In this document: positions 10,470-28,300 of the stretch, one piece after another
How the letters are laid out: the number at the start of each line of letters is the position of its first letter
How positions within the stretch are numbered: the stretch's first letter is position 1
Assembly: GCA_012033205.1 (NCBI GenBank)
Contig: JAAUSO010000074.1
Span: forward strand, 1 to 32,080
DNA length: 32,080 nt
Direction: 5' to 3'
Source: Richelia sp. SL_2_1
GTDB taxonomy: Bacteria > Cyanobacteriota > Cyanobacteriia > Cyanobacteriales > Nostocaceae
Position numbers and translations under genes: made by a program
The notes under the pieces: model-generated
Told to the model about the DNA's origin: nothing
Seen by the model: only the letters and a program-made list of their open reading frames with translations
Database searches by the model: none

Positions 10470-13262
10470 TTGTATTTGCGAGCGATCGCAATTCGAGAAA
10501 AAGCGGTGACAGGAGAATATGGCAAGGTTAACTATAGTCAGCGAGATTTAGCTTACGCTCTAGGTCATCTGGGAGGGCTTTACCAAGCACGGGAAAACTA
10601 CAGCAAAGCAGAAACTGTTTATCTACGAGCGATCGCTATCTTAGAAAAATCATTAGGTCGAGAGCATCCCGACTTGGCAGGTAGTCTGGATAGTTTGGGT
10701 GTATTGTATGAAAAACAAGGAAATTATAGTAAAGCAGAAGCAGTTTACCTGCGATCATTTACCATTCGGGAGAAAAAATTTGGTCGAGAACATCTAGATG
10801 TCGCTAGTAGCTACAATAATTTAGCATCGTTTAACCAATTACGAGGAAATTATAGTTCCTCTGAATCTTTTTATTTAAAATCGCTGGCGATTCGTGAGAA
10901 ATTATTAGGTAAGAACCATCCCTATGTAGCATCCAGCTTGGGTGGCTTAGCTGATCTTTACCGAGAACAAGGAAATTATACCTCATCTGAATCTTTACAC
11001 CTGCGTGCGCTAGCAATTCGAGAAAATGCATTCGGACAAGAACATCAAGATGTGGCTTTTAGCTTGAATAACTTAGCAGAAGTTTACCGAGAACAGGGAA
11101 AATATACTCAAGCCGAACCATTGTTTATGCGATCGCTCGGCATTTTTGAGAAGATATTTGGTCAAAAAAATCAATACGTCGCAATTAACCTGAATAATTT
11201 GGCAGCTATTTACCAAGAAACAGGTAATTTTTCTCAAGCAGAAAACTTTTTTTTACGTGCGCTCAACATTAACGAGAGAATACTTGGTTCGGAACATGAT
11301 TTAGTCGCAATGGGCTTGAATAATTTGGCTGGACTTTACAACTCCCAGGAAAATTATGGTAAAGCTGAACCTTTGTATGTGCGATCGCTCGCTATTTTTG
11401 AGAAAGTTTTTGGTCGAGAACATCCAAATGTGGCAGTTAGCTTGAGTAATTTGGCATTATATTATTGGGGAAAAGGTGATATCAACCGCGCTACTGATTA
11501 TCTCAACCGTGGGGTTGGTGTTGAAGAGAAAAACTTACAACTGATTTATGCTGTGGGTTCGGAACAAAGAAAGCAAAATTATGCCCAAACCTTCACTGCA
11601 AGAACCAATACTGTTGTTTCCCTGGCTTTACAGCAATCAAACAAAAACCCCACCCTTGGCAAATTAGCCCTAACTACCGTACTCCGTCGCAAAGGACGGG
11701 TAATGGATGCGATGACTGACACAGTGCAAACATTACAAGCTCAGTTAGCAGACAACCCAGACACCAAAAAATTATTTGATGAATGGTTAAATATTCAACA
11801 ACAACTAGCAAACCTAGTATATCGGGGAGCAGGAGAGCAAAAATTTGAAAATTATCAACAGCAAATCAAAAAATTAGAAGCGGAAAAGGAAGAACTAGAA
11901 AATCGAGTTAGTGCCAAAAGCGCCGAGTTCCGTCAGGAAATAAAACCTGTTGAATTAACTGATATCCAAGCCCAAATACCCAGCGATGCGGCAATGGTGG
12001 AGATTGTTCAGTACAGTCCATTTAACCCCAAACCTAAAAAAAACAGCGAAAAATTGAGTCAACCCCGTTATGCTGCGGTAGTATTACGTAGAACTGGGGA
12101 ACCGAAGTGGGTTGATTTGGGTGATGCTGCAAGTATTGATAAATCGGTTGCGAGTTTCCGTCAAGTATTGGCAACTGCTCCAGGTACAAGCGAACGGGGA
12201 ATTGATGTAACACCTGTGGAGGGAAAAAGCCAGATATCGAAACTCCAAGAACTTGCTCGCAACTTAGACAAGCAAGTTATGGCTCCCATTCGTCCTTTGT
12301 TGGGGGATGCCCGTCACTTGCTATTATCACCTGATGGGCAATTAAACTTGATACCTTTTGAAGCACTCAAGGACGATCGCAATAAATATCTCGTTGAAAG
12401 TTACGCTTTTTCCTACCTCACCACTGGTAGAGATTTACTGCGCTTGGAAACCACAGCCAAACAACTTTCCAATCCCGTCGTGTTTGCAGATATCAATTAC
12501 GATCGCCAGGAAACGACTATTGCCGCAAATCCTCCGGTAAGTTCCACTGCCATTTCCCGTGGTTCCCAAAATCAACGTTCTGCCGACTTTACGACTTTAA
12601 CATTTGGCAAACTTAAGGCAACTTTAGCAGAAGCTGAAGAAATCAAAAAAATCTTTCCCAACACAAATGTAATTACAGGTGAAAAAGCCACAGAAACCGC
12701 TATCAAACAATTAAAGACACCGAGTATTTTACACTTGGCTACTCACGGTTTCTTCTTGCCTAATAAAGAAATTAAACCCGATACTCACAATAATAATCAA
12801 CTAGAACAACCCAAATATTTAAATTTAGAAAATCCCCTCTTACGTTCGGGTTTAGCATTAGCAGGATTTAATAACCGTCAAAATAAACAAAGTAACAATA
12901 CAGAAGATGGAGTGCTTACAGCCTTAGAGGTTGCCGGGTTGAATTTACGAGGAACCCCATTAGTCATATTATCTGCTTGTGAAACGGGTTTAGGTAACGT
13001 AAAGTTAGGCGATGGTGTCTACGGTTTGCGACGTGCTTTAGTCATCGCAGGAAGCCAAGCTCAGCTATTAAGTTTATGGCAAGTTGATGATAATGGTACG
13101 AAAGATTTGATGGTGAAATATTACGAGAGAATAAAAGCCGGAAAAGGTAGACACGCAGCATTGAGGGAAGTGCAATTAGAGTTTTTAAAAAATCCCAAAT
13201 ACCAACATCCCTACTATTGGGCTAGTTTTATTCCTTCTGGTAATTGGCAACCGATGAAGTGA
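10470..13262 (+). CDS. TPR-CHAT protein, apparently 5'-truncated
   Basis: About 930 residues from the first possible TTG. The N-terminal 370 residues are 42-residue kinesin-light-chain-type TPRs (LGxEHPDVAxSLNNLAxLYxxQGNY pattern, eight to nine copies). A coiled-coil-like linker follows (about 440-490), then a C-terminal CHAT domain, a caspase-like protease fold, with catalytic His759 in LHLATHGFF and Cys837 in LSACETG. No ATG exists in frame near the start. Repeat-like coding (GNFAQAEPLYLRA) begins immediately after an in-frame TAG at 10443, and there is no signal peptide, unlike the second TPR-CHAT gene here. The original 5' end therefore seems lost; the rest has no stop or shift. In other systems CHAT proteases cut protein targets when TPRs sense a partner. 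The partner here is unknown. Confidence 0.82.
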   Translation: MYLRAIAIREKAVTGEYGKVNYSQRDLAYALGHLGGLYQARENYSKAETVYLRAIAILEKSLGREHPDLAGSLDSLGVLYEKQGNYSKAEAVYLRSFTIREKKFGREHLDVASSYNNLASFNQLRGNYSSSESFYLKSLAIREKLLGKNHPYVASSLGGLADLYREQGNYTSSESLHLRALAIRENAFGQEHQDVAFSLNNLAEVYREQGKYTQAEPLFMRSLGIFEKIFGQKNQYVAINLNNLAAIYQETGNFSQAENFFLRALNINERILGSEHDLVAMGLNNLAGLYNSQENYGKAEPLYVRSLAIFEKVFGREHPNVAVSLSNLALYYWGKGDINRATDYLNRGVGVEEKNLQLIYAVGSEQRKQNYAQTFTARTNTVVSLALQQSNKNPTLGKLALTTVLRRKGRVMDAMTDTVQTLQAQLADNPDTKKLFDEWLNIQQQLANLVYRGAGEQKFENYQQQIKKLEAEKEELENRVSAKSAEFRQEIKPVELTDIQAQIPSDAAMVEIVQYSPFNPKPKKNSEKLSQPRYAAVVLRRTGEPKWVDLGDAASIDKSVASFRQVLATAPGTSERGIDVTPVEGKSQISKLQELARNLDKQVMAPIRPLLGDARHLLLSPDGQLNLIPFEALKDDRNKYLVESYAFSYLTTGRDLLRLETTAKQLSNPVVFADINYDRQETTIAANPPVSSTAISRGSQNQRSADFTTLTFGKLKATLAEAEEIKKIFPNTNVITGEKATETAIKQLKTPSILHLATHGFFLPNKEIKPDTHNNNQLEQPKYLNLENPLLRSGLALAGFNNRQNKQSNNTEDGVLTALEVAGLNLRGTPLVILSACETGLGNVKLGDGVYGLRRALVIAGSQAQLLSLWQVDDNGTKDLMVKYYERIKAGKGRHAALREVQLEFLKNPKYQHPYYWASFIPSGNWQPMK

Positions 13263-13704: not shown

Positions 13705-14049
13705 ATGTCACTCGAAAATGTGAGAGGTTTTCTCAAACAGTTAGCACATAACGAAGCTTTATTTGCTCAAATTAAAGCTGCAAAAAGTAAAGAGGAATGT
13801 AGTCAGATTGCCCAAGCTACTGGTTATGATTTCACTGCGATGGAACTGGAAGAATTCACTACCCAGTTTTTAGAATCAGAAGGTAATGATAGCGAACTGC
13901 GTGATTTAAATGAGCAAGAATTAGAAGCTGTTTTTGGGGGAATTAATTCTATTGCTTCTACGATTGGCATAATTGGTATTTTACCAATACTAATATATGG
14001 GTTATCTCCATTGGGTCAAAGAAATCCATTGAATCAAGACCTATATTAA
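13705..14049 (+). CDS. Nif11-leader peptide precursor with an IYG core motif
   Basis: A 114-residue precursor. Residues 1-79 are a Nif11-type leader: FLKQLAHNEALFAQI, AKSKEECSQIAQATGYDF and LRDLNEQELEAVFGG. They end in a double glycine at 78-79, the expected C39-peptidase cut site. The 35-residue core is hydrophobic with few charged residues and contains I97-Y98-G99 followed by LSP. XYG is the motif acted on by PlpX-type radical SAM spliceases, which excise a tyramine unit from the backbone and leave an alpha-keto-beta-amino acid residue (knowledge from the Pleurocapsa Plp system). The paralogue 39 bp downstream has the same 79-residue leader length, and the radical SAM gene follows it. Splicing of this core is inference from motif and context. 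Confidence 0.88.
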   Translation: MSLENVRGFLKQLAHNEALFAQIKAAKSKEECSQIAQATGYDFTAMELEEFTTQFLESEGNDSELRDLNEQELEAVFGGINSIASTIGIIGILPILIYGLSPLGQRNPLNQDLY

Positions 14050-14088
14050 TGTTTTATCAATTTAAATTTAATTACTGGAGCAAAGATT

Positions 14089-14454
14089 ATGTCTATAGAA
14101 CATGTGAAAGCCTTTTATGAAAGGCTAGAAAATGATGAAGCTTTCCGCACTCAAATTCAGCAGGTGCAAAGCAAAGAAGAATGCAGTCAAATAGTCAAAA
14201 AAGCTGGCTATGAATTTACTCAAGATGAATTAGAAGAATATACACTTTTAATTTTGGAGTCTGCTAATGATGAGGGCGAACTTCAAGATTTAGATCAAAA
14301 AGAATTAGCTGGTGTCATTGGTGGTGCGATGAACTCCATTATCGGAATTAAACCCATAATACGACCAATGTATGGTCTGATTCCCCCTGATTATTTTGAT
14401 TTACCTATAGTACAACCTCTGTATGGAGTGATTAGGGTAGACGAGATTATGTAA
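14089..14454 (+). CDS. Nif11-leader peptide precursor with MYG and LYG core motifs
   Basis: A 121-residue paralogue of the preceding gene. The leader (1-79) keeps VKAFYERLENDEAFRTQI, QSKEECSQIVKKAGYEFT and LQDLDQKELAGVIGG, with the Gly-Gly site at 78-79. The 42-residue core carries two X-Tyr-Gly sites in similar settings: PMYGLIP (M94-Y95-G96) and PLYGVI (L111-Y112-G113). The ribosome-binding site (ggag, 10 nt before ATG) is better than that of the first precursor. Two hairpins follow before the radical SAM gene. Two XYG motifs in one core suggest two modification events on one peptide, if the enzyme is a splicease; this is inference. Confidence 0.9.
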   Translation: MSIEHVKAFYERLENDEAFRTQIQQVQSKEECSQIVKKAGYEFTQDELEEYTLLILESANDEGELQDLDQKELAGVIGGAMNSIIGIKPIIRPMYGLIPPDYFDLPIVQPLYGVIRVDEIM

Positions 14455-14468
14455 TACAAAATTTGAAT

Positions 14469-14530
14469 AACTCGGTTTCTCGAAAAAAAAATTCTTATTT
14501 AAAAGTTGATTTTTGCAAAGAAACTGAGTT
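14469..14530 (+). terminator. First hairpin between precursors and radical SAM gene
   Basis: Arms aactcggtttct (14469-14480) and agaaactgagtt (14519-14530) pair over 12 bp with one G-U, followed by a T-containing stretch (ttcattcat). It lies 15 bp after the second precursor stop, where an attenuator would make precursor mRNA exceed enzyme mRNA. Confidence 0.5.
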
Positions 14531-14592
14531 TTCATTCATAGAGTACAACATCCATATTTTTGATGCTTTAGTTAATACCTTGCACCATTATG

Positions 14593-14659
14593 ATAAACCG
14601 GATTTTTTGAGAATAAACAAATTCCCAAAACTTAAATTATGTTGATTAATCCGGTTTAT
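14593..14659 (+). terminator. Second hairpin between precursors and radical SAM gene
   Basis: Perfect 12-bp arms ataaaccggatt (14593-14604) and aatccggtttat (14648-14659) with a 43-nt loop, followed by ttgttct. It is a second partial-terminator candidate before the enzyme gene at 14803. Confidence 0.5.
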
Positions 14660-14802
14660 TTGTTCTAGTTTAAAATCATGCAAAATCTCAGTCTTTTGCT
14701 AAAAAGATTTCTAAGAGATAAGACACCATAATCAAGATTTTACTTTTCAGTAATTGTTATTTATTCACTAACAAATCACTTCATTTTTATGAGGATATTT
14801 TT

Positions 14803-16056
14803 ATGACTTATCGCCGAATTAGTTACGCAGTTTGGGAAATTACCTTAAAATGTAATTTAGCCTGTAGTCACTGTGGTTCTCGTGCAGGACATACAAGAAC
14901 TAAAGAACTTTCTACGGAAGAAGCGCTGAATTTAGTCAAACAACTTGCAGATGTGGGAATTACTGAAGTTACTTTGATTGGTGGGGAAGCTTTTTTACGT
15001 CCTGATTGGTTAGAAATCGCCAAAGCAATTACAGATGCCGGAATGCTTTGCGGTATGACTACGGGTGGTTTTGGTATCACTATAGACACTGCACGCCGGA
15101 TGAAAGAAGCGGGTATCAGTGTAGTTTCTGTATCCGTTGATGGCTTAGAAGCAACTCATGACAAGCTGCGAGGAAAACCAGGTTCTTGGCAATGGGCATT
15201 TAAAACCATGAGTCATCTAAAAGAAGCTGGTATTCCTTTTGGCTGCAATACTCAAATTAACCGCCTATCTGCTCCGGAATTTCCCAGTATATATGAACAC
15301 GTCCGTGATGCTGGAGTTTTTGCTTGGCAGGTTCAGCTAACAGTACCAATGGGGAATGCCGCCGATAACAGCGAGATGCTCCTGCAACCTTACGAACTTC
15401 TGGATATTTACCCAATGATTGCCCGTGTTGCTCAAAGAGCAAAAAGAGAAGGTGTACAATTACAACCAGGGAATAATATTGGGTATTACGGACCCTATGA
15501 AAGATTGTTACGGGGAGGAAATGCTTGGTCATTTTGGCAAGGATGCAGTGCAGGGTTATCTGCGTTGGGTATTGAAGCAGATGGTGCAATTAAAGGTTGT
15601 CCCTCCCTGCCGACTTCTGCATACACAGGAGGTAATATCAGAGACTATAATTTACGTACAATTATTGAGGAAACTGAGGAATTGCGGTTTAATATGGGAG
15701 CTGGAACTCCTCAAGGTACTGAGCATTTATGGGGATTCTGCAAGACTTGCGAGTTTGCAGAACTCTGTCGCGGTGGTTGCAGTTGGACTGCCCATGTTTT
15801 CTTTGATAAGCGGGGTAATAATCCTTACTGTCATCACCGTGCTTTAACGCAAGCAAAACAGGGTATTAGAGAGCGAGTATCTTTGAAGCGGAAAGCAGGT
15901 GGAAACCCTTTTGATAATGGAGAGTTTGCTTTAATTGAGGAAGCAATCGATACTCCTTGGATCGAGAATGATCCTTTACATTTTACTGCTGACAAAATTC
16001 AATGGTCAAAAAGTTGGGAAAAAGAAGCAGAATTAGAAGTTTCTGTTGTTAGTTGA
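14803..16056 (+). CDS. Radical SAM/SPASM peptide-modifying enzyme (PlpX/splicease-like)
   Basis: A 417-residue enzyme. The radical SAM cluster motif is C17-x3-C21-x2-C24 (CNLACSHC), with G60-G61-E62 for SAM binding. The C-terminal SPASM region has seven cysteines (C248, C266, C313, C316, C322, C326, C343; QGC, KGC, CKTCEFAELCRGGC and PYC), expected to hold auxiliary Fe-S clusters. A gaggat ribosome-binding site precedes the ATG. It lies 348 bp downstream of two Nif11 precursors with XYG motifs and 21 bp upstream of a tiny conserved-looking gene, the gene order I recall for the plpA/plpX/plpY type. It probably modifies the precursor cores before leader removal. The radical SAM/SPASM call is certain; splicing chemistry rather than thioether or epimerase chemistry is inference from the XYG substrates. 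Confidence 0.9.
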   Translation: MTYRRISYAVWEITLKCNLACSHCGSRAGHTRTKELSTEEALNLVKQLADVGITEVTLIGGEAFLRPDWLEIAKAITDAGMLCGMTTGGFGITIDTARRMKEAGISVVSVSVDGLEATHDKLRGKPGSWQWAFKTMSHLKEAGIPFGCNTQINRLSAPEFPSIYEHVRDAGVFAWQVQLTVPMGNAADNSEMLLQPYELLDIYPMIARVAQRAKREGVQLQPGNNIGYYGPYERLLRGGNAWSFWQGCSAGLSALGIEADGAIKGCPSLPTSAYTGGNIRDYNLRTIIEETEELRFNMGAGTPQGTEHLWGFCKTCEFAELCRGGCSWTAHVFFDKRGNNPYCHHRALTQAKQGIRERVSLKRKAGGNPFDNGEFALIEEAIDTPWIENDPLHFTADKIQWSKSWEKEAELEVSVVS

Positions 16057-16077
16057 TATTTACAAAACATAAATCAT

Positions 16078-16263
16078 ATGACTAATTATAGACCTGAAAA
16101 AAAGACGATGATGGTTGAATCTCAATCTGAAGATAATTCTATTTCTCCTTTATTACCACGTTTATCTTGGGGCAGTCAAATTGCTTATATGAAAGCGCTT
16201 TTTAGAGCGAAAAAGGCTTTAGATAGGATAGAGAAGGAAGCTGGATATTTAATCAGTAATTAA
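16078..16263 (+). CDS. Small protein paired with the radical SAM enzyme (PlpY-like candidate)
   Basis: A 61-residue, soluble, basic and helix-prone protein (SQIAYMKALFRAKKALDRIEKEAGYL) starting 21 bp after the radical SAM stop. No Gly-Gly site, signal peptide or cysteine is present, so it is unlikely to be a precursor. Its size and position fit the small accessory protein PlpY needed by PlpX in the spliceotide system, but I recognise this from context, not from sequence. A strong intrinsic terminator lies about 130 bp downstream, closing the operon. Confidence 0.6.
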   Translation: MTNYRPEKKTMMVESQSEDNSISPLLPRLSWGSQIAYMKALFRAKKALDRIEKEAGYLISN

Positions 16264-16392: not shown

Positions 16393-16426
16393 TCACTCCA
16401 ATAATTTTATTGGGGTGATTTTTTTG
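16393..16426 (+). terminator. Strong intrinsic terminator after the radical SAM operon
   Basis: A stem from tcactccaat (from 16393) pairing with attggggtga (to 16418) is followed directly by a run of eight or more T. This is a textbook rho-independent terminator for the plus strand. Confidence 0.82.
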
Positions 16427-16918: not shown

Positions 16919-17143
16919 ATGTCTAAGATTCAGATAGTTGATTTAAATGTTGAACAGATTGCTGCATTAACTGAGAATGAAGCGGCTACAATTCAAGGTG
17001 GATTAGATCCTACAACAGGTTCAGCTGCGCTTCTTTTCTTGGCGGTAGCAGGAGTAGCTTTAGCATCTCCTGTAGTAATAGTTGCAGGTGCAGCTGCTTC
17101 TATAATTGCATCTGGAATTGCTATCTCTAATGCCATCGAATAA
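16919..17143 (+). CDS. Gly-Gly leader bacteriocin-like peptide 1
   Basis: A 74-residue precursor. The leader MSKIQIVDLNVEQIAALTEN...IQGG ends in the double glycine at 27-28 (bacteriocin-type secretion leader, not Nif11). The core is very hydrophobic and rich in Ala, Val, Ile and Gly, with repeated AGVA/AGAAAS segments, and ends SNAIE. It has no cysteine and no XYG motif. A good ribosome-binding site (taggag) precedes the ATG. It is expected to be cut and exported by the C39-peptidase transporter encoded convergently downstream. It could be a membrane-active bacteriocin or a signal; function is unknown. Confidence 0.82.
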   Translation: MSKIQIVDLNVEQIAALTENEAATIQGGLDPTTGSAALLFLAVAGVALASPVVIVAGAAASIIASGIAISNAIE

Positions 17144-17323: not shown

Positions 17324-17488
17324 ATGTCTAGTATTGTTATCTCTGACTTACACCAAGAAAGCATATTGACAGATTTATTGGATGAAAAAATTGGTGCTAT
17401 ACAAGGTGGTTCTGCCGTTGTTATAGTAACAATAGGTCCGATAGTAGCTAGTTTGGCTGGGATTGCTACCTCTAATGCTATCAAATAA
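17324..17488 (+). CDS. Gly-Gly leader bacteriocin-like peptide 2 (54 residues)
   Basis: ATG at 17324 follows taggag at a normal distance. The product begins MSSIVISDLHQESILTDLLD and has a Gly-Gly site at residues 28-29 (AIQGG). The 25-residue core ends AGIATSNAIK. The leader is nearly the same as that of peptide 3, whereas the core end resembles peptide 1 (AISNAIE). The gene looks like a recombinant or shortened copy. It is short but clearly real given leader, ribosome-binding site and paralogues on both sides. Confidence 0.8.
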   Translation: MSSIVISDLHQESILTDLLDEKIGAIQGGSAVVIVTIGPIVASLAGIATSNAIK

Positions 17489-17591: not shown

Positions 17592-17777
17592 ATGTCTAGT
17601 ATTGTTATTTCTGATTTAAATCAAGAAAGCATCTTAACAGATTTATCTGATGAACAAATTAATGCGATACAAGGTGGTATTACACCATTAGCAGCAGCAG
17701 CAGCAACAGCAGCAGTAGTATTATTAGTTGTTTATGTAAAAGGTTATGTAGATGGAGCTAAAAGTTGTAAGGCGTAA
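17592..17777 (+). CDS. Gly-Gly leader bacteriocin-like peptide 3
   Basis: A 61-residue precursor with leader MSSIVISDLNQESILTDLSD...AIQGG (Gly-Gly at 28-29). The 32-residue core is an alanine run (LAAAAATAAVVLL) followed by VVYVKGYVDGAKSCKA, with one cysteine near the end. The core differs strongly from peptides 1 and 2 although the leader is shared, as expected for a leader recognised by one exporter. It is the last plus-strand gene before the convergent secretion cassette. Confidence 0.82.
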   Translation: MSSIVISDLNQESILTDLSDEQINAIQGGITPLAAAAATAAVVLLVVYVKGYVDGAKSCKA

Positions 17778-18060: not shown

Positions 18061-18816
18061 TTACCCTTCTTGAACAGCCAAATTAAAATTATGCACAACT
18101 TCTACTTGCTGAACTTGCTGTTTCAACCATGCAGTATACAAATCTGATAAAATTTTAAAACGTAATTGATTATCCAATTCCTGTTGAATAATTTCTTCAA
18201 CAAAAATCAAATGAGCGCCTTTTGAAGTAATAATAGGTTTTAAAAGCTGTGGTGCTTTACTTGCAAAAACAGCAGGAGAAATTTCTGGTTTTAAATCTTT
18301 ACGATGTACTATACCTAAATATCCCCCCTTACGACGTAACTCTTTATCCTGAATATATTGACGAGCCACATCATAGAAGCTCATTTCTTCTTCTTTAATT
18401 GCATAATAAAGTTCCAACGCCAAATCTTCGTCATCCACAATCACCTCGTAAATAACTGCGCTGGTAAATTCAAGTTGATTTTCATAAAAATATTGTTCAA
18501 CTTTATTGCCAAAAAGATGATTCGCTAGTTTTGCAGAAATGACTGTATTTTGAACAATTTTTTCAAATTCATCTAAGGAAAGTCCTTGTTTTTCTAACCA
18601 TTTCCAAGTATCCGCAGCGCTATTTAGTTGATTTACTAAACGCAAGGTATCTGCTGTTTTCTGAAGTTCTTCTGTCTCTGCTTGGATACCAAATTCAACA
18701 GCAGCATTTTCAATAATTTTGCGATTGACAATTCCTTCAATAATATCTGGAATTTTGGAAGATAACTTGACTTGTTGAAGAATTTCTTTGTTGGTAATGC
18801 TAATAGATTGTGACAT
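18061..18816 (-). CDS. Parvulin-type peptidylprolyl isomerase of the peptide secretion cassette
   Basis: A 251-residue protein without a signal peptide. The N-terminal ~115 residues are a helical SurA-N-like segment (IPDIIEGIVNRKIIENAAVE, TWKWLEKQGLSLDEFEKIVQ). Residues about 120-210 form a PpiC-type rotamase domain (YYAIKEEEMSFYDVARQYI, KGGYLGIVHRKDLKPEISPAVF, APQLLKPIITSKGAHLIFVEE). An aggaaa ribosome-binding site precedes the ATG. Such isomerases are commonly found beside HlyD and C39-ABC exporter genes of cyanobacterial bacteriocin loci, where they probably help hold or fold the cargo in the cytoplasm. It is separated from hlyD by 372 bp that contain a dispersed repeat. Confidence 0.85.
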   Translation of the reverse strand: MSQSISITNKEILQQVKLSSKIPDIIEGIVNRKIIENAAVEFGIQAETEELQKTADTLRLVNQLNSAADTWKWLEKQGLSLDEFEKIVQNTVISAKLANHLFGNKVEQYFYENQLEFTSAVIYEVIVDDEDLALELYYAIKEEEMSFYDVARQYIQDKELRRKGGYLGIVHRKDLKPEISPAVFASKAPQLLKPIITSKGAHLIFVEEIIQQELDNQLRFKILSDLYTAWLKQQVQQVEVVHNFNLAVQEG

Positions 18817-19188: not shown

Positions 19189-20709
19189 CTAAAGCTTTAA
19201 ATCTCCCTCTTGTAACTTCTTAAATGGGTCTAGTAGAAAATCAATAATCCGACGTTGACGTACTATTACTTCTGCTGTTGCTGTATCACCAGGACGCAAG
19301 GGAATACATTTATCTTTACTAGGAATACAATCACTTTTCAGGGAAATTTCTAAGTTATATGCAGCAACTTTTCCATTAGGTGTATCCACCTGTGAGGTAG
19401 TAGGAGAAATTTCTAATAATTCCCCTTCAATAATTCCATAATCTTGAAATGGATAGGCATCAAATTTAATTTTTACTGGTAATCCTTTGCGTAGAGAACC
19501 ACTTTCTGTAGTAGCCATTTGAGCGCGAATAATTAGCGGTGAACCTGCGGGAGCAATTTCTGCTACTCTTGTACCAGCTTGGACAACAGAACCGGGACGT
19601 TGAATTGGTAGTTGAAAAACTCTACCTGGAATGGGTGATTTTATCACTCGCTGCTGTGATTGCAACTGCAAGCTATTTATTTGACTCTTAGTTTGAGCAA
19701 TTTCTGATTGTAACGTTGTCATTTCTGTTTCTAAATTTTTTAATTGCTCCTCGCTTTTGAGTAAAGCAATTTTTCCAGAATGAGTTAAGGTTTGAGAACT
19801 TCTTTGTTGTTCTTTTAAACGTAAATAAGCTTGTTCAATTTCTGCCTTTGCTTGGCGAATTGTGCGCTGATAGCTGCTTTTCTGTTCTGCTAAACGGAGA
19901 TGTGCTTGTTTAATATCCGATTTACTTTGTTCGTATAATTTCTGTCTTTCTTTGGCTATATCTCGCTTATCTACAACATTAATTTCTGCAACAGCACCTT
20001 CTTGTTTAAGTTTGCTATAGCGTTCTACCTCTCTTTGGGCGCTTTCTAAACTATTTTCTAATAATTTATTTGCAGTTTGGGTTTCCTCAATACTTTGCTG
20101 TGCTTGATTAACTTGTGTTTGCTTTTCTTCTTGTTTTACTTCATAGGAATTTTTGAGCGCGAGAAAATTTTGTTGTGCTTGTTCAATTTGTGCTTGTTTT
20201 TCTAGCTCTTGAGCTTGATTCTGTTGACGCTGCGTAGCTAAAGATACTACTAGCTGGTTTTTCAAAATATTTAATTGCGATCGCCTGTTAACTTGTCCTT
20301 CTAATTTGTCTTTTCCCTGACGTAATTCTGCCTGAACTAATTCTGAATCTAAAATTAATATTGGCTCTCCTGGTTTGACTAATTCGCCTTCTTTTACGGG
20401 AATAGCTGCAACAGTTCCTGCAACTGCACTATCTAATTTTGTTGTTTTACCTTTTGGTTCTAATTGTCCTCTGGCTGTTCCTGTTTCATCTACTTTTGAT
20501 AACATTGCCCAAGGTAATGTGATGGAAACAAAGATGAATAAAAAATATAGTATTCCTCTTGTCCAAACTATAGGTAAACTATCAAGTAATTCTTTGCTAG
20601 CTTCAGACCAATCTTCAGATAATGTCGTTACTTTCTGCGGATAAATACTAGTTGATATATTGTTATTTTCGTATGGTATTTGTACTTGATTATTAGATGA
20701 ATTAGACAT
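19189..20709 (-). CDS. HlyD-family membrane fusion protein of a type I secretion system
   Basis: A 506-residue periplasmic adaptor. It has a cytoplasmic N-terminus, one transmembrane helix (about 51-70, RGILYFLFIFVSITLPWAML) and a lipoyl/barrel-sandwich half (VAGTVAAIPVKEGELVKPGEPILIL). Long Gln/Glu-rich coiled coils follow (about 125-345), then the second lipoyl half (IKSPIPGRVFQLPIQRPGSVVQAG) and a beta-barrel region ending RPGDTATAEVIVRQRRIIDFLLDPF. It should link the inner-membrane C39-ABC transporter, encoded 117 bp upstream on the same strand, to an outer-membrane TolC-type channel that is not in this window. The length is normal and the frame is intact. Confidence 0.93.
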   Translation of the reverse strand: MSNSSNNQVQIPYENNNISTSIYPQKVTTLSEDWSEASKELLDSLPIVWTRGILYFLFIFVSITLPWAMLSKVDETGTARGQLEPKGKTTKLDSAVAGTVAAIPVKEGELVKPGEPILILDSELVQAELRQGKDKLEGQVNRRSQLNILKNQLVVSLATQRQQNQAQELEKQAQIEQAQQNFLALKNSYEVKQEEKQTQVNQAQQSIEETQTANKLLENSLESAQREVERYSKLKQEGAVAEINVVDKRDIAKERQKLYEQSKSDIKQAHLRLAEQKSSYQRTIRQAKAEIEQAYLRLKEQQRSSQTLTHSGKIALLKSEEQLKNLETEMTTLQSEIAQTKSQINSLQLQSQQRVIKSPIPGRVFQLPIQRPGSVVQAGTRVAEIAPAGSPLIIRAQMATTESGSLRKGLPVKIKFDAYPFQDYGIIEGELLEISPTTSQVDTPNGKVAAYNLEISLKSDCIPSKDKCIPLRPGDTATAEVIVRQRRIIDFLLDPFKKLQEGDLKL

Positions 20710-20826: not shown

Positions 20827-21105
20827 TTATGCAGCGTTATCTAACTGCTGTTGATTCAAATAATAATAATGTCCGCGTTTTGTCATTAACTCTTGATGAT
20901 TTCCAGTTTCAATTAACACACCTTTATCTAACACTAAAATTAAATCAGCATTCCTGACTGTAGAAAGGCGATGGGCTATTATTAATGTGGTTCTTCCTTG
21001 CAAAATTGTGTTGAAATTATTTTGAATGATTCTTTCCGATTCAGTGTCTAAATGAGAAGTTGCTTCATCTAAAATAAGTAACTTGGGATTACCTAATAAA
21101 GCCCT
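20827..21105 (-). pseudogene. Detached 3' end of the C39-ABC exporter gene (Walker B, switch His)
   Basis: This minus-strand frame continues the exporter after a one-base shift. Just after the point where the main frame reads IAIAGLY-stop, it reads [20 protein letters not shown] (Walker B and D-loop), then [20 protein letters not shown] (switch His) and a normal ending QQQLDNAA. All these are required for ATP hydrolysis. Restoring one base at the GCGATCGCA-GGG junction (about 21102-21107) rejoins the two parts into a 905-residue protein. Confidence 0.85.
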
Positions 21106-23543
21106 GCGATCGCAATTCTTTGTCTTTGTCCTCCAGATAGCATTCCTCCACCTTCTCCTATTTGGGTTTCATACCCCATTGGCAATTTTTTAATAAAATC
21201 ATCTGCACCTGCTAATCGTGCTGATTCGATAATTTCTTCTAAGCTAGCACTGGGATATCCTAAACTAATATTTTCCCGAATTGTGCCACCAAATAAAAAT
21301 GTATCTTGGTCAACTACTCCTATCTGTTGACGCAGGGAACGTAGAGATATACTACTAATATCTTGTCCGTCAATTAAAATTTTGCCATCGGTGGCAGGAT
21401 ACAAGCCCAAAACTAATTTTGAAATTGTTGTTTTACCAGAGCCACTACGCCCTACTAGTGCTACCATTTGTCCGGGTTTGATTGTAAAAGTTAGATTTTC
21501 AATAATATTCAAATCGCTTTCTGGATGATAGCGAAATGTCACATTCTCAAAGCAAATTTGACCCTGGATTGGTGGCAGAGATTGTCTCACTTGGTGCTGT
21601 AAATCTTCTTCTGGTTCTGCATCTAAAACATCGTTAATTCTTTCTACAGCAATCATGACTTCCTGCAATTCGTTCCATAACACTGTTAACCGTTGGAAGG
21701 GTCTGATAATATTCCCTACTAACATATTAAATGCTACTAATTGACCAATCGTGAGTTGATTTTGAATCACCAACCATGCACCATACCACAATAAAGTAGT
21801 TGTAACTATCGCTTCAATTGTATTACTAAATATTTGCAGACGATTACCGATAACTTGTCCAGAAAAATTGGTTTTAACTTCTTTATTTAGTAGTTCTTCC
21901 CAATGCCAGCGTACTGTCTGTTCTATTGCTGTAGCTTTCACTGTTCGCACACCAGAAAGAACTTCAATCAGATAACTACTTTCCTTCGCTACAGCATTAA
22001 ATATTTCTCGCGAAATTTTCTGTAAAAATGGGGTGGCAATTAATGCTAATAATGCAAAAGGTGGCACGATTATCAATGACAATAAAGCCATTTTCCAACT
22101 GTACCAAAACATTAATCCTAAATAGATAACTACAGTTACTAAATCTAAGAGAATGGATAGTGCTTCTCCAGAGAGAAAGCGTTGAATTTTTCTGTTTTCT
22201 TGTAGTCTGGAAATAATATCTCCGACATAACGAGATTCAAAAAAATCTAAGGGTAAACGTAAAGTATGGCGAATAAAACCAATAATTAAAGCAACATCTA
22301 TACGGTTTGCTGTATGGTCGAGAAGATATTGCCGTAACCCAGTCATTGCCACCCGAAATAAGCTAAATATGAGTAATCCTAAACCAACTGCTGTTAAAGT
22401 TAATTCTGAACGTTGAACTACTACTCTATCTAAAATCAACTGAGTAAATAAAGGTGTAATTAATCCAAATACTTGAATAAAAATGGAAGCCATAAATACC
22501 TCAAACATTACCAAACTATGAGGTTTGATTAACTCAAAAAATTGCCAGAATGGAGTAGTTGTTTCTTTCGCTTCCTTAAAAAATACTGTAGGTTGTAGTA
22601 ACAATGCGTATCCAGTCCAATCTGCTTGAAATTCCCGATGAGTTAGGTTGCGCTGACCGATCGCAGGGTCTGCAACTATGACATACTTTTTGGTAATCTC
22701 GTAGACAACAATGTAATGTTTGCCTTCCCAATGTGCGATCGCAGGTAATTTTTGCTTGGCTAACTGGTTGAGACTGGCTTTGACTGGTCTGGTGTTAAAT
22801 CCGATACTTTCTGCTGCTGTTGATAATCCCCGCAGAGATGCACCATTGCGATCGACGTTGGCAATATCTCGGATACGATTGATACTAAAGTTCTTACCCC
22901 AATACTTGGATACCATCACCAAACAAGCTGCTCCACAGTCGGATGCACTTTGTTGAGCAAAGAATGGATACCTTTTAGTTACACGCTGCCATAAATGCCC
23001 TACCTGTTGTGAGGGGTTGGGAAAGTAAGCTTTGCTGACTTTTTTCTCTAGCTTCGATGTTGCTGGAGGAATTTGAGGAGATGGGGAAATAGGAAGAGCA
23101 GAAGATGGAATTATGGTATCAGATTTTACTACTAGAGAATTGAGCTTTTGTGCTTGTGTTTGTAAGTAGTCGTAAATTTGCGGATACTTTGTTATCAAGG
23201 GTGACAGTGTTTCCTGCGAAATAAAGGCAAGATGTAAGTTGACACTAGCTCTTGCTGTATAAGCTTTAAAAGCAGTTTCCTTAAACAAGGTAAATTCACC
23301 AAATGACGCTCCTACCTCCAAGGTTGTAATCAGTTCACCTGCATCATCAAGTAATCTGACTTTACCTGCAAGCACAATATAAATACCTGCTTCAACATCC
23401 GTACCTTGCCAAAATTTTCCTACCTTGGGAGTAAGAGATTTAACTTGTTTAAGACAGTGCTGCAAGTCTTCTGGGGAGAGAGCAGAACCTAATGTAGTGC
23501 TTAATTGCTGCGAAGACAGCGAATCTGATAAATATTGCGTCAT
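21093..23543 (-). CDS. cNMP-binding/C39-peptidase/ABC peptide exporter, frameshifted near 3' end
   Basis: The main frame encodes 816 residues. A cNMP-binding (CAP-ED-like) domain at about 30-140 is followed by a C39 peptidase at about 185-320, with catalytic C203 (SDCGAACL), H276 (GKHYIVV) and D292 (ADPA). A six-helix ABC membrane domain follows (about 340-620), and then a nucleotide-binding domain with Walker A (GRSGSGKTT, 698-706) and signature LSGGQ (802-806). The C39 domain would cut Gly-Gly leaders such as those of the five precursors at 13705-17777 while exporting the cores. The frame then stops early at 21093 through a one-base loss. As written it lacks Walker B and would be inactive. 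The defect may be a real mutation or a sequencing error. It lies 46 bp downstream of a DNA-binding protein gene and upstream of hlyD. Confidence 0.9.
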
Positions 23544-23589: not shown

Positions 23590-24189
23590 TTATTTTTCCG
23601 GTTCCAAAAGAAAAAATTCGTTATAATCTGGTGAATTCTCAACTCTAAGGTCGGAGATGGAGATTTTTGCTCCTGAAGTTTTCTCCGTATTTTCACTTTC
23701 CGATTGATTGGGTTTGGGAATTGTCGATAATCCCATCTGTTTGAGAACTCGTTTGAGATGGCGATCGCTAACTTCAATTCCCAATTCTTTGGCTAAGTGT
23801 TTTCTTAACCAGCTAACTGTCCAACGTCTAAATCCATAACCACAGTCACGGGGACTTTGGGAAAGCAATTCTTGCAAACGTTCTACATATTCCTGATTAA
23901 TTGCTTTCGGACGACCTAAAGGACAATCTTGCCATTGATGAGCCATTCCAGTTCGAGCAATGTGCATCCAATGTCTGACCGTTGCCGGACAACAACCTAA
24001 TATTTGACAAATTTCCGTTTGGGTTTTACCTTCATCTGCTAACAACATAATATTTATTCTCTGATGATAGGAGTTGGACAAATTTTCTTGTTGTTTTTGT
24101 TGCAAGAATTTGCGTTGAAATGCTGTGAGGTATTTACCTGTTGAAATATTGATAGTATTCACTTCTGTTTGTTCAAAATTGTTGGACAT
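23590..24189 (-). CDS. IS630-type winged-helix DNA-binding protein leading the secretion operon
   Basis: A 199-residue protein from the ATG at 24189 (a GTG one codon earlier is also possible). Residues about 20-145 resemble the N-terminal helix-turn-helix region of IS630-family transposases: FQRKFLQQKQQ, MLLADEGKTQTEICQILGCCPATVRHW, a GRPKAI linker, and the second winged helix GYGFRRWTVSWLRKHLAKELGIEVSDRHLKRVLKQMGL. There is no DDE catalytic domain. A unique acidic/polar tail ends SPDYNEFFLLEPEK. It is 46 bp upstream of the exporter gene, with intact frame and no inverted repeats nearby. It therefore looks like a domesticated regulator of the cassette rather than a broken transposase, but that role is inference. 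Confidence 0.78.
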   Translation of the reverse strand: MSNNFEQTEVNTINISTGKYLTAFQRKFLQQKQQENLSNSYHQRINIMLLADEGKTQTEICQILGCCPATVRHWMHIARTGMAHQWQDCPLGRPKAINQEYVERLQELLSQSPRDCGYGFRRWTVSWLRKHLAKELGIEVSDRHLKRVLKQMGLSTIPKPNQSESENTEKTSGAKISISDLRVENSPDYNEFFLLEPEK

Positions 24190-24603
24190 CACAGTCTCAT
24201 CTGTGTATTTTTGGTTAGGCTTATATCTTGTAAGTTGATAACTTTTAATGCAGCCTATAGTCTGGAGTGAAGATATTTACTAAGCTCATTTTTAACTAAT
24301 TTAGTTTGATACATTTTGATTGTAAAAACAACTTTTAAGCATCAAATAAATCACAAAAATTTTACATTTAGTACTTCACCTTAATCACTACACTGGGAAT
24401 AAGTATATTTCCGTATTGGATAAGCACAAATGACCAATTGTAAATCCAAAAGGAATAGAGTATAAAAAATTATAAAACATCTGCATATACTTAAGTAGGT
24501 ATAAACAATAAATGCGATACATTATTAGACATTTATGGATTTGACAAGCTTGTGTAGGATGGTAATGGGTATAACGAAAACGAAATTGCTTCCATCCCAA
24601 CCA
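24190..24603. other. Upstream region of the secretion operon
   Basis: About 410 bp, AT-rich. It should contain the promoter of the minus-strand operon starting at 24189. A 70-codon minus frame (24388-24600) has no ribosome-binding site or recognisable features. No convincing promoter boxes were singled out. Confidence 0.4.
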
Positions 24604-25018: not shown

Positions 25019-28000
25019 CTACTCCGCTTCCCCAATCATAGTAAAAGCTGCCCAATCCACAGGATTTGGATGTTGTTTCATCGTCTTCAACATCGCCTGT
25101 CGCAGTGCTTGGGCTTTGTCGGGACTTTTTTGCAGATTTTGATAGAATTCCGTCATTAACTCGGCTGTCGGGGCATCTGGAACCGCCCAGAGCGATACTA
25201 AGACACTGGGTACACCCGCAGTAATTAGGGAGCGGGATAAACCAATTACCCCATCTCCAGAAATTCGTCCCCTTCCAGTATCGCAAGCGCTTAACACGAC
25301 TAATTCGGCATTCAATTTTAAATCGAGGATTTCCCCCGCTGTTAACAAACCGTCACCACCCCCCTCTTGTCCCCCCTTGAAAGGGGATGAAGGGGGGTCG
25401 GGTGCTAGAGCTATACCACTATTTAAACCTTGGATATCATCAAATAAACCGTGGGTGGCTAAGTGGATTAATCTGGCTTGGGATAGACGTTTTGTTACTT
25501 CGGTTTCCGTGGCTTGATTGCCTGTGAGAGATTGGGTTTTGAATAATTTAGCGATCGCCTTTGCTTCTAGTTCTGCACCAGGTAAGGGAGTTAATTGTTG
25601 TGGTGCTTCGCCAATTTTTGGGGATACAGCAGGCATGGTAGGATTACCGACAATTAATGTATTATTTGCCTGGATGGGTTTGTTACCGATGCGTTGTTTC
25701 TGTTTGCGGGTTAATTCTAAAACTTGAATTGATGGGGAGGTGAGAATGGTGTGTTTCTCAATTAAATATTTGCCGTCTTTGTCTTGAAGTGCGGGAAAGG
25801 GAACCAAGAATAAACTACCTTGGGGAATGAATGTAACTCTAGCGCTAGGGTTTTTGGGTAACAAATCGGCGATAGGGTTAATTAATAATTCGTGGAGACG
25901 TTTTAGTTTGTTTTTTGCTTTGGGTGTGTCGGGATTGTAGGACACATCAATACCACGAAAAGCTGTACCTCTGACACCGATAGATTCACGACTGGTGGTG
26001 ATGAGGTCGTTTAAATTTGTGTTTTCTTTTTGCCACAATGGTTTTAAATCAACTGTGCGGAAGGTGATTTGTCCGGTGGATTTGATAACCCAAATATATA
26101 ATTCCGATTCTTTGACTTTGTATTGATTATTGATTTTTAATTCGTCGTAAATAATCGAATATTGTACGAGAGTTGTATTTTGTTGTTGAGCGATTTGCTT
26201 AATCTCTGCAATATTTGGTGGTGTGGGGGATTGGAATTTAGAATTAGTTGATATACGGGAAGCCAGTAACTCTACAAATGCACGCGCTCTACCGCGTTCG
26301 GAAATTTCTAAAGCTGTATCGGTTTTATTTTGGGCAATCAGAACTTGCTGCAAAGTATTGTAGGTACCGCGTTGCGTTTCAAAAATTGAGATTTTATTGT
26401 TATCCTTTAGTTCTCGACTCCGCAGGGATTCCCAAACTTTTATGCCTTCGATTAAGGTACTCTCTGCTAAGGGGAATTTTCTCTGCCTGTAGAAAGTGAG
26501 TCCGAGATTGTTGAGTGCATTGCCTTCACTGCGAAGGTCTTTAATTTCACGGGCAATTTTTAAACTTTGCTGTTGATACTCAATTGCTTTGGGGTAATCT
26601 CCTAAATTACTATAGGCATTACCAAGATTGAAGAGGGAAATACCTTCCCCTTGACGGTCTTTTATTTTTCGTGCGATCGCTAATCTTTGTTGTTGGTATT
26701 CAATGGCTTTGGGATATTCCCCTAAAGCATTGTAGACATTTCCGATATTATTGAGGGCATTACTCTCACTTTTGGGGTCTTTAATTTCCCGCGCGATCGC
26801 TAACCATTGTTGTTGATATTCAATTGCTTGCCGATAATCTCTCAGTTCATAATAAGCAAGACCGAGATTTCCTAAAGCTCTACCCTCACCGGAACGGTTT
26901 TTAAACTTGCGTGCGAGATTTAGGAATTGTTCTTGGTACTTGACACTTTCAAGGAAATTACCGACAGAAAAATAAGCAAGACCCATATTACCTAAAGCAT
27001 TACCTTCTGTTTGATGGTCTTTGATGTCCCGCGCAGTCTCTAAACTTCGTTGGGAGTAATCAATAGCTTTGGGGTAATCTCCCAAATAAAGATAGTCAAG
27101 ACCGAGATTTAAGAATGCTTGACCCTGACTTCGACGGTTTTTCATCTCCGTGGCGATCGCCGCAAATTGCTGATGGTATTCCACGGCTTTAGTGTAGTCT
27201 CCCAAGGAATGGGAAGCATTTCCTAGATTATTAAGTGCATTACCTTCACCGTCGCGGTCTTTAACTTCGCGAGAAATAGCCAAATGTTGTTGGTGGTAGG
27301 CGATCGCTTTTTGGTATTCTGCTAAGGAATGGTAGACATTTCCCAGACTACCGAGAACACCCCCCTCCAGGTCACGAGCTTGAATTTTGCGGGAAATGAC
27401 TAAGCTTTGTTGATAGTTTTCGATAGCTTGAGAATAGTTTCCCAAGGCTGCATAAGCAAGACCGATATTGATCAGGGTGACAATCTCGCTTTTGGGGTCT
27501 TTAATTTCCCGCAGTATTGCCAAATTTTGTTGGTGGTACTCAATTGCTTTCGAGTAATTTCCCAAGGACTCATTCGCCAAACCAAGATTTCTCAAAGCAT
27601 TACTCTGGGCTTTAGGGTCTTTCATTTCCCTGCCAATTACCAAACTTTGTTGGTAGTACTCAATGGCTTTATTATATTCTCCCAGGGCGCGGTAATTATT
27701 TCCCAAATTATTAAGTGCATTACCCTCTCCCCAACGGTCTTTGATTTCTCTCGCAATTATCAAGCTTTGTTGTTGATACTCAATTGCTTTGGGATAATCT
27801 CCTAAATAATCATAAGCAATACCCAGATTACCTATCGCTTTACCCTCACCTAAACGGTCTTTAATTTCCCGGTATATTTCCAGCGCTTGTTCCCAAGATT
27901 TTATAGCTGCTTGTAAATTTCCCGTTTGAGCTTGTTGTATACCTTGATTTAAAATTCTATCCGCTTCTACCTTTTTTTCGGCTTTGCTTTGCGCTAAAAC

Positions 28001-28117
28001 CTTTGATGTATTACTTAAAATAGGCAAATTTGGTACGAAGGAAGTAGAAAAAATAGCCAAGCAACAAACAAAGACACTTAGACCAACTTTATTTAATCCA
28101 ACTTTATCAAAACGCAT
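25019..28117 (-). CDS. TPR-CHAT protein with signal peptide (intact)
   Basis: From the ATG at 28117, which has gaggag about 9 nt upstream, the product is 1032 residues. A longer frame from 28150 overlaps a remnant and lacks that signal. An N-terminal signal peptide (GLSVFVCCLAIFSTSFV...VLAQ, cut near residue 42) is followed by 12-13 near-identical 40-residue TPRs to about residue 560 (pattern GNALNNLGxAYxxLGDYPKAIEYQQQSLxIAREIKD). A helical linker precedes the C-terminal CHAT domain, with catalytic His889 (IHLATHGLF) and Cys945 (LSACDTG). CHAT domains are caspase-like cysteine proteases. A secreted or periplasmic location follows from the signal peptide. Target and trigger are unknown. A G/C-rich palindrome is inserted in frame between the catalytic residues. 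Confidence 0.92.
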   Translation of the reverse strand: MRFDKVGLNKVGLSVFVCCLAIFSTSFVPNLPILSNTSKVLAQSKAEKKVEADRILNQGIQQAQTGNLQAAIKSWEQALEIYREIKDRLGEGKAIGNLGIAYDYLGDYPKAIEYQQQSLIIAREIKDRWGEGNALNNLGNNYRALGEYNKAIEYYQQSLVIGREMKDPKAQSNALRNLGLANESLGNYSKAIEYHQQNLAILREIKDPKSEIVTLINIGLAYAALGNYSQAIENYQQSLVISRKIQARDLEGGVLGSLGNVYHSLAEYQKAIAYHQQHLAISREVKDRDGEGNALNNLGNASHSLGDYTKAVEYHQQFAAIATEMKNRRSQGQAFLNLGLDYLYLGDYPKAIDYSQRSLETARDIKDHQTEGNALGNMGLAYFSVGNFLESVKYQEQFLNLARKFKNRSGEGRALGNLGLAYYELRDYRQAIEYQQQWLAIAREIKDPKSESNALNNIGNVYNALGEYPKAIEYQQQRLAIARKIKDRQGEGISLFNLGNAYSNLGDYPKAIEYQQQSLKIAREIKDLRSEGNALNNLGLTFYRQRKFPLAESTLIEGIKVWESLRSRELKDNNKISIFETQRGTYNTLQQVLIAQNKTDTALEISERGRARAFVELLASRISTNSKFQSPTPPNIAEIKQIAQQQNTTLVQYSIIYDELKINNQYKVKESELYIWVIKSTGQITFRTVDLKPLWQKENTNLNDLITTSRESIGVRGTAFRGIDVSYNPDTPKAKNKLKRLHELLINPIADLLPKNPSARVTFIPQGSLFLVPFPALQDKDGKYLIEKHTILTSPSIQVLELTRKQKQRIGNKPIQANNTLIVGNPTMPAVSPKIGEAPQQLTPLPGAELEAKAIAKLFKTQSLTGNQATETEVTKRLSQARLIHLATHGLFDDIQGLNSGIALAPDPPSSPFKGGQEGGGDGLLTAGEILDLKLNAELVVLSACDTGRGRISGDGVIGLSRSLITAGVPSVLVSLWAVPDAPTAELMTEFYQNLQKSPDKAQALRQAMLKTMKQHPNPVDWAAFTMIGEAE
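25359..25397. repeat. G/C-rich palindromic repeat inside the CHAT coding sequence
   Basis: Runs of C and G (cccccc at 25359, cccccc at 25371, gggg at 25383, gggggg at 25392) form nested inverted repeats and encode PPSSPFKGGQEGG (residues 908-920). The flanking protein sequence is normal for CHAT, so the repeat seems to have entered a surface loop without breaking the frame. Confidence 0.65.
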
Positions 28118-28136
28118 AATCAATAACTCCTCACCA

Positions 28137-28300
28137 TTACAACAAACCAATTGACGTAAAACCAGCCCAATCTTGCGGATTTGGATATTTTTTCATTGTT
28201 TCCAAGATAGCTTTGCGGAATGCACTAGCTTTATCCGGATTTTTACTGAAATTTTCCTAAAATTTAACCATTAAAAATGACGTTGCCTGATCACCAATTC
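28137..28300 (-). pseudogene. Decayed CHAT-protein 3' end, remnant 2
   Basis: The minus strand reads DQATSFLMVKF-stop-ENFSKNPDKASAFRKAIL and then ETMKKYPNPQDWAGFTSIGLL-stop (stop at 28137). This matches the C-terminus of the adjacent intact CHAT protein (NLQKSPDKAQALRQAML, HPNPVDWAAFTMIG) with one internal TAG at 28259-28261. Everything upstream, including the catalytic residues, is missing. Its end lies 20 bp before the start codon of the intact gene. Confidence 0.85.

Follow-up and report, generated by a model that had tools for sequence, protein, structure and literature searches.

Locus and gene content

The window analysed here is a stretch of 32,080 nucleotides from the cyanobacterium Richelia sp. 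SL_2_1 (assembly GCA_012033205.1, contig JAAUSO010000074.1, positions 1 to 32,080). Four intact open reading frames (ORFs) lie at positions 13705-16263: two precursor peptides with Nif11-type leaders, a radical S-adenosylmethionine (SAM) enzyme of the SPASM kind, and a gene of 61 amino acids (aa). Together they very probably form a splicease (spliceotide) cluster, making ribosomally synthesized and post-translationally modified peptides (RiPPs) from which a tyramine equivalent would be removed at X-Tyr-Gly sites (YG sites below) and which would then be exported. The genes are as follows; L094 is a reference locus described below.

13705..14049, + strand: precursor 1, with a 79-aa Nif11 leader ending in Gly-Gly and a 35-aa hydrophobic core holding one IYG (PF07862, E 7e-15; TIGR03798, 49 bits)
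14089..14454, + strand: precursor 2, with a 79-aa Nif11 leader ending in Gly-Gly and a 42-aa core holding MYG and LYG (PF07862, E 3e-19; TIGR03798, 60 bits)
14803..16056, + strand: homologue of PlpX, a splicease radical SAM/SPASM enzyme of 417 aa (TIGR04103, 842 bits; identity to L094 PlpX; tree)
16078..16263, + strand: homologue of PlpY, 61 aa (37% identity over 51 aa to L094 PlpY, E 2e-8)

Splicease precursors are characterized by a leader of the Nif11 or nitrile hydratase type and by X-Tyr-Gly in the core; both window precursors have a Nif11 leader and such a site. The two leaders are identical at 39 of 79 residues and pass the Nif11 cut-offs (PF07862, and TIGR03798 with its threshold of 32.3 bits). 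Core 1 reads INSIASTIGIIGILPILIYGLSPLGQRNPLNQDLY, and core 2 reads AMNSIIGIKPIIRPMYGLIPPDYFDLPIVQPLYGVIRVDEIM. Each precursor contains a single cysteine, located in the leader; neither core has one. The segment IIRPMYGL of core 2 is similar to PIRPLYGLPI, which is listed among the splice tags of PMC10533398, and to the L094 core FPIRPLYGLPI; MYG and LYG are sites reported in the same paper as processed by PlpXY.

The host genome (7.55 Mb in 359 contigs, 98% complete) contains one TIGR04103 match above cut-off, the enzyme of the window, and two TIGR03798 matches, both at this locus; the enzyme and the precursors therefore most likely belong together.

The enzyme, its partner and their relatives

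Score, identity and clade all place the enzyme in the PlpX family. It exceeds the 725-bit cut-off of TIGR04103, a curated equivalog family, as does L094 PlpX (824 bits), and is 77% identical to the latter over 405 residues. In addition to TIGR04103, the best 24 of 87 further family matches were listed, down to 54 bits; all fall below their own cut-offs. The radical SAM motif is C17-x3-C21-x2-C24, and seven further cysteines stand at 248, 266, 313, 316, 322, 326 and 343 (12 cysteines in total); these ten, from the motif and the SPASM region, are invariant in an alignment of 30 sequences. Seven-cysteine SPASM domains have the spacing CX9-15GX4C-CX2CX5CX3C-C, which the enzyme matches. The best fold matches of its AlphaFold model in the PDB are SkfB, PqqE, BlsE and anSME; none of the 14 chains matched by a sequence search of the PDB bears the name of a splicease.

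The window enzyme pairs with that of locus L006 (support 100/92) in a maximum-likelihood tree of 87 rows, and the clade around this pair also contains PlpX; two TIGR03913-type outgroup enzymes split from this clade at 100/100, although the outgroup rows sit on long branches and their exact placement is unsure. Both outgroup enzymes match TIGR03913 best, one above the cut-off and one just below it. This family (rad_SAM_trio, maturases of GDL-motif peptides) scores closest among the other SPASM families and was rejected as an assignment: the window enzyme reaches 421 bits against a cut-off of 591.75 and lies in a separate clade. The two sampled outgroup loci (7,977 and 12,001 bases) contain neither a PlpY-like nor a Nif11 ORF. 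A PoyD-type epimerase (TIGR04517, cut-off 325) was likewise rejected, this family not being among the best 25 listed for the enzyme, and so was a cysteine thioether maturase of the sactipeptide or ranthipeptide kind, as neither precursor has a core cysteine.

The 61-aa protein, which starts 22 bases 3' of the enzyme gene, aligns with the 56-aa PlpY of L094, as expected of the small partner that lies beside a splicease; it has no NCBIfam or Pfam match. A profile seeded with these two proteins was run on the flank of 91 enzyme ORFs, from -200 to 1500 bases downstream, and detected a PlpY-like ORF there for 90 of them. The 91 include the window, L094 and L084-L092, and some loci repeat others (for example L087 and L024, the latter from Richelia sp. 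UBA3308). The one enzyme ORF that lacks this neighbour is a fragment of 278 aa lying at the end of its locus. In the 90 aligned PlpY-like ORFs (window and PlpY included, repeats kept) the residues L, P, R, W, K and L are invariant. Descriptions of PlpY in print differ: a 2025 paper (PMC12710340) holds it too small for the strict winged-helix fold, three strands and three helices, of a RiPP recognition element (RRE), and a 2024 review (PMC11002830) terms it a truncated RRE.

An earlier note on this DNA, made from the letters alone, had described matched 79-residue Nif11 leaders ending in Gly-Gly, X-Tyr-Gly motifs in both cores, a seven-cysteine SPASM radical SAM enzyme and a 61-residue partner gene. 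The family profiles and alignments given above agree with it on each of these, the partner now being recognizable as a PlpY homologue. It had also named, beforehand, a profile search against PlpX and other SPASM families as a test of its reading; the profile scores and the tree put the enzyme in no other clade, with TIGR04103 passed and TIGR03913 separate.

The reference locus was reached by way of a published tag. From AVAAGYGVVFP and the mutant name PlpA3-M5G (PMC10533398) the natural core AVAAMYGVV was deduced and back-translated; scanned in 388 genomes of the order, it matched one, at locus L094. This locus encodes a precursor with AVAAMYGVVFP, another ending in FPIRPLYGLPI, an enzyme of 419 aa, a protein of 56 aa and an epimerase of the PoyD type (618 bits against TIGR04517). 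As the gene set fits the description of plp (PMC11002830, PMC10533398), L094 is regarded as the reference cluster, plp, and its genome as that of Pleurocapsa sp. PCC 7319, names that come from gene content and not from comparison with a record sequence. With plp (PlpA2, PlpA3, PlpX, PlpY, PlpD) the window shares the PlpX and PlpY homologues and the order precursors-X-Y; the MYG and LYG sites of plp recur in core 2; and precursor 2 is identical to the PlpA2-like ORF in 37 of 82 alignment columns, in the leaders. There are also differences. A PoyD-type epimerase adjoins the L094 precursors, whereas TIGR04517 has no match in the window genome (14 control genomes gave none either, which leaves the sensitivity of that search undemonstrated). 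The two Nif11-type precursors of L094 have one site each, whereas precursor 2 has two in one core; and precursor 1 has isoleucine at X.

A contig scan, in which records from the genome of the window may be missing, yielded 218 enzymes related to that of the window; the 80 highest-ranking were used, as 79 loci (L005-L083) from Nostocales and other cyanobacteria. Enzyme identity across them is 76-88%, and at least 80% in 66. The loci share the Nif11 ORF and the PlpY-type partner, and cores vary between loci: the closest enzyme, that of L006 (Nostoc sp. NMS2, 88%), is accompanied by cores quite different from those of the window that nevertheless carry YG. A Nif11 ORF is present in 75 of the 79 loci, and in 72 it has YG after residue 60. 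No Nif11 ORF was found in L041, L048, L051 and L053, of which L051 and L053 start at most 361 bases from the enzyme gene; the Nif11 ORF of L038 is truncated; and in L064 the YG sits in a short ORF that escapes the residue-60 rule. L083, with the most distant enzyme (76%), has a PlpY-like gene, and its only Nif11 ORF found lacks YG.

The cores were compared as a set drawn from the window, L094 and L005-L092. An automatic rule took 138 cores from 144 Nif11 ORFs, of which 129 are distinct; five of the six ORFs that it dropped contain YG, and its boundary falls a few residues inside the leader for some cores, that of window precursor 2 among them. YG occurs in 126 of the 129 distinct cores, the three without it belonging to L058, L071 and L083. 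There are 212 YG sites in all, against a mean of 25.9 and a maximum of 43 in 1000 composition-keeping shuffles; the cores are related and do not amount to 129 independent trials, so that this comparison is a guide, not a probability. The X residue is leucine at 99 sites, methionine at 57 and isoleucine at 18 (the IYG of the window included), and the residue before X is proline at 138, alanine at 28 and leucine at 27. In several relatives (L014, L015, L022 and L037, for example) a hydrophobic core with a single site accompanies others rich in proline. The three YG sites of the window are ordinary for the TIGR04103 family.

The enzyme is above cut-off in 3 of 8 genomes of the genus (the window's included) and in 14 of 60 genomes searched overall; the trait is thus patchy. 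Two relatives show other arrangements of the genes. In Hyella patelloides (L056:2884-5952) seven tandem Nif11 precursors with different YG cores precede a single enzyme. In Microseira wollei (L017:1-834) a 278-aa enzyme ORF lies on the other strand at the end of the locus, with a Nif11 precursor on the same strand as this fragment at 1230-1598; it is probably a second, cut-off splicease unit.

Proposed chemistry and competing explanations

In the scheme that best accommodates these genes, the two Nif11-leader precursors would be made on the ribosome; the radical SAM/SPASM enzyme, with its PlpY-type partner, would form a 5'-deoxyadenosyl radical from SAM and excise a tyramine equivalent (C8H9NO, 135.068 Da) at each X-Tyr-Gly site; and a C39 exporter, for which the gene at 21093-23543, accompanied by HlyD and PpiC, is the simplest candidate, would probably cleave the product behind Gly-Gly and secrete it. 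The calculated MH+ of core 1 is 3750.12 unspliced and would be 3615.05 after excision; for core 2 it is 4770.58 and would be 4635.52 with one site excised and 4500.45 with two. The alpha-ketoamide group of such products would be compatible with an action as protease inhibitor. These steps carry different weights. That the window enzyme performs tyramine splicing is predicted with high confidence from its homology; that each of the three YG sites is used is less sure, because 14 of 16 tagged FtsZ constructs in PMC10533398 were not spliced. Leader removal and export would fall to the nearby C39 exporter, and the products may act as protease inhibitors.

Several observations weigh against this account or limit it. 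Homology cannot establish the use of each site, and the reaction itself is read from the genes. In Table 1 of PMC10533398 splicing is recorded for 2 of the 16 tagged FtsZ constructs; a YG tag is therefore insufficient by itself. The context in core 1 is uncommon, with leucine rather than proline before X (27 against 138 of the 212 sites), and 7 of the 79 loci have no YG precursor by the residue-60 test. The AlphaFold model of the enzyme is of middling confidence (mean predicted local distance difference test score, pLDDT, 71.8) and low around the cluster motif, residues 17-32 being below 50. The candidate exporter is encoded 5 kb off and on the opposite strand, in a genome with several more genes of the C39-ABC and PpiC types.

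The alternative that survives best accepts a splicease cluster in which precursor 2 is the only real substrate, precursor 1 being unmodified or a decaying copy. The less common context of core 1, with isoleucine at X and leucine before it, would fit, as would the natural action of the reference PlpXY on MYG and LYG (PMC10533398). Yet the leader and frame of precursor 1 are intact, similar single-site hydrophobic cores occur in the four relatives named above, and isoleucine at X (18 of 212) and leucine before X (27 of 212) are each found elsewhere in the family; this alternative is unlikely, if the first to be kept in mind. Lower still stands a cluster that is splicease by origin and silent or non-working in this strain. 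A helix-turn-helix gene at 23590-24192, of the transposase type by a reading of its Pfam matches, and the patchy occurrence in the genus (3 of 8 genomes) could be taken that way; but the four ORFs are intact, the ten cysteines are conserved and the invariant residues of the PlpY-like family are present, and such silence is improbable. That the enzyme is instead a SPASM maturase of another chemistry (thioether, epimerase or cyclophane), with YG serving otherwise, would draw on the shared SPASM architecture, on weaker matches to many families (TIGR03913 the best, 421 bits) and on fold matches that include SkfB and SuiB, and it is very improbable indeed given that the enzyme passes TIGR04103 and fails the 24 other listed families, is 77% identical to PlpX in a clade apart from TIGR03913-type enzymes, faces cores in which cysteine thioethers are impossible, and belongs to a family whose cores carry YG again and again.

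The splicease cluster so recognized belongs to a class already described and widespread: PMC10533398 puts the number of other characterized systems at 27 and of predicted ones at 939, and this locus is possibly among the latter. The earlier note had proposed a new member of the spliceotide class. Membership is upheld by TIGR04103, the identity to PlpX, the shared clade, the PlpY homologue and the MYG and LYG sites; the locus is rightly called a new member, but the class is already large. With class and chemistry described before, the locus is a sound identification, not a surprise. Ketoamide peptides have been described both as protease-inhibitor groups and as labelling handles (PMC11002830, PMC10533398), so that every further cluster contributes core sequences and X residues found in nature; for probing which contexts spliceases accept, the two-site core and the isoleucine-containing hydrophobic core are concrete substrates.

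Regulatory features and the downstream module

Further features within and beyond the splicease unit are listed here; the exporter is of the ATP-binding cassette (ABC) type, with a domain binding cyclic nucleoside monophosphates (cNMP).

14465..14536, + strand: stem-loop 1, in the gap between precursors and enzyme (RNA fold z -4.1 against 200 shuffles)
14592..14660, + strand: stem-loop 2, in the same gap (RNA fold z -4.9)
16393..16418, + strand: intrinsic terminator-like hairpin, an 11-pair stem and then a T-run (z -6.5)
16919..17143, + strand: small peptide with a Gly-Gly leader, class II bacteriocin-like, no YG (ORF; weak TIGR03949 match, E 0.8)
17324..17488, + strand: small peptide with a Gly-Gly leader, no YG (ORF; no family match)
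17592..17777, + strand: small peptide with a Gly-Gly leader, no YG (ORF; TIGR03949, 22.5 bits, cut-off 21.5)
18061..18816, - strand: PpiC/SurA-type rotamase (PF00639, E 1e-10)
19189..20709, - strand: HlyD-type membrane fusion protein (TIGR01843, 235 bits, cut-off 208.65; PF13437)
21093..23543, - strand: C39-peptidase ABC exporter with an N-terminal cNMP-binding domain (PF03412, PF00664, PF00005, PF00027)

The transcription unit probably extends beyond 16263 and ends at the terminator-like hairpin; terminator-type sites number 5 in the region, against 2.0 in shuffles. The gap that holds both stem-loops measures 348 bases, from the end of precursor 2 to the start of the enzyme gene. The stem-loops were picked after inspection, which makes their z-scores post hoc; as possible attenuators they could keep expression of the enzyme below that of the precursors. 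The second hairpin was considered as a dispersed repeat and rejected, the 143-base stretch 14520-14662 having one match in the genome. An Rfam scan gave no match, ARAGORN no gene, and promoter-like sites are not above shuffle level (20 against a mean of 17.2, sd 3.9).

Proteins with TPR repeats and a CHAT domain flank the region on both sides (10470-13262 and 25019-28150). The upstream one was tried as a conserved neighbour and set aside, with weak matches in only 4 of 80 loci.

The rotamase, HlyD protein and exporter may form a module that exports the products. Of the relative loci, 70 extend 3 kb or more downstream. In this set a rotamase homologue is found in at least 40 (in 29 it is downstream and antiparallel, as in the window), HlyD in at least 21, the exporter in at least 18 and any gene of the module in at least 45; these are lower bounds, as the flanks stop at 6 kb. 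The linkage is suggestive only, since these counts have no unlinked-locus control and the genome holds other such genes. Cyanobacterial bacteriocin clusters of groups I and II are described with the same composition, a long C39-ABC transporter with an N-terminal CAP_ED domain, HlyD and SurA/rotamase (Wang et al. 2011, PMC3140520). In its main text that survey uses the words 'radical SAM' 0 times, whereas the module of the window faces a splicease unit.

A bolder scheme, speculative and rather unlikely as a whole, would have one exporter secrete a mixture: both precursors in spliced form, with ketoamides at three sites (isoleucine, methionine and leucine), together with the three unspliced Gly-Gly-leader peptides, as a weapon that joins protease inhibition with bacteriocin action, the PpiC/HlyD/C39-ABC module being a standing part of many splicease loci. 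The peptide at 16919..17143 is perhaps another cargo of the exporter. Those at 17324 and 17592 have near-identical leaders and differing cores.

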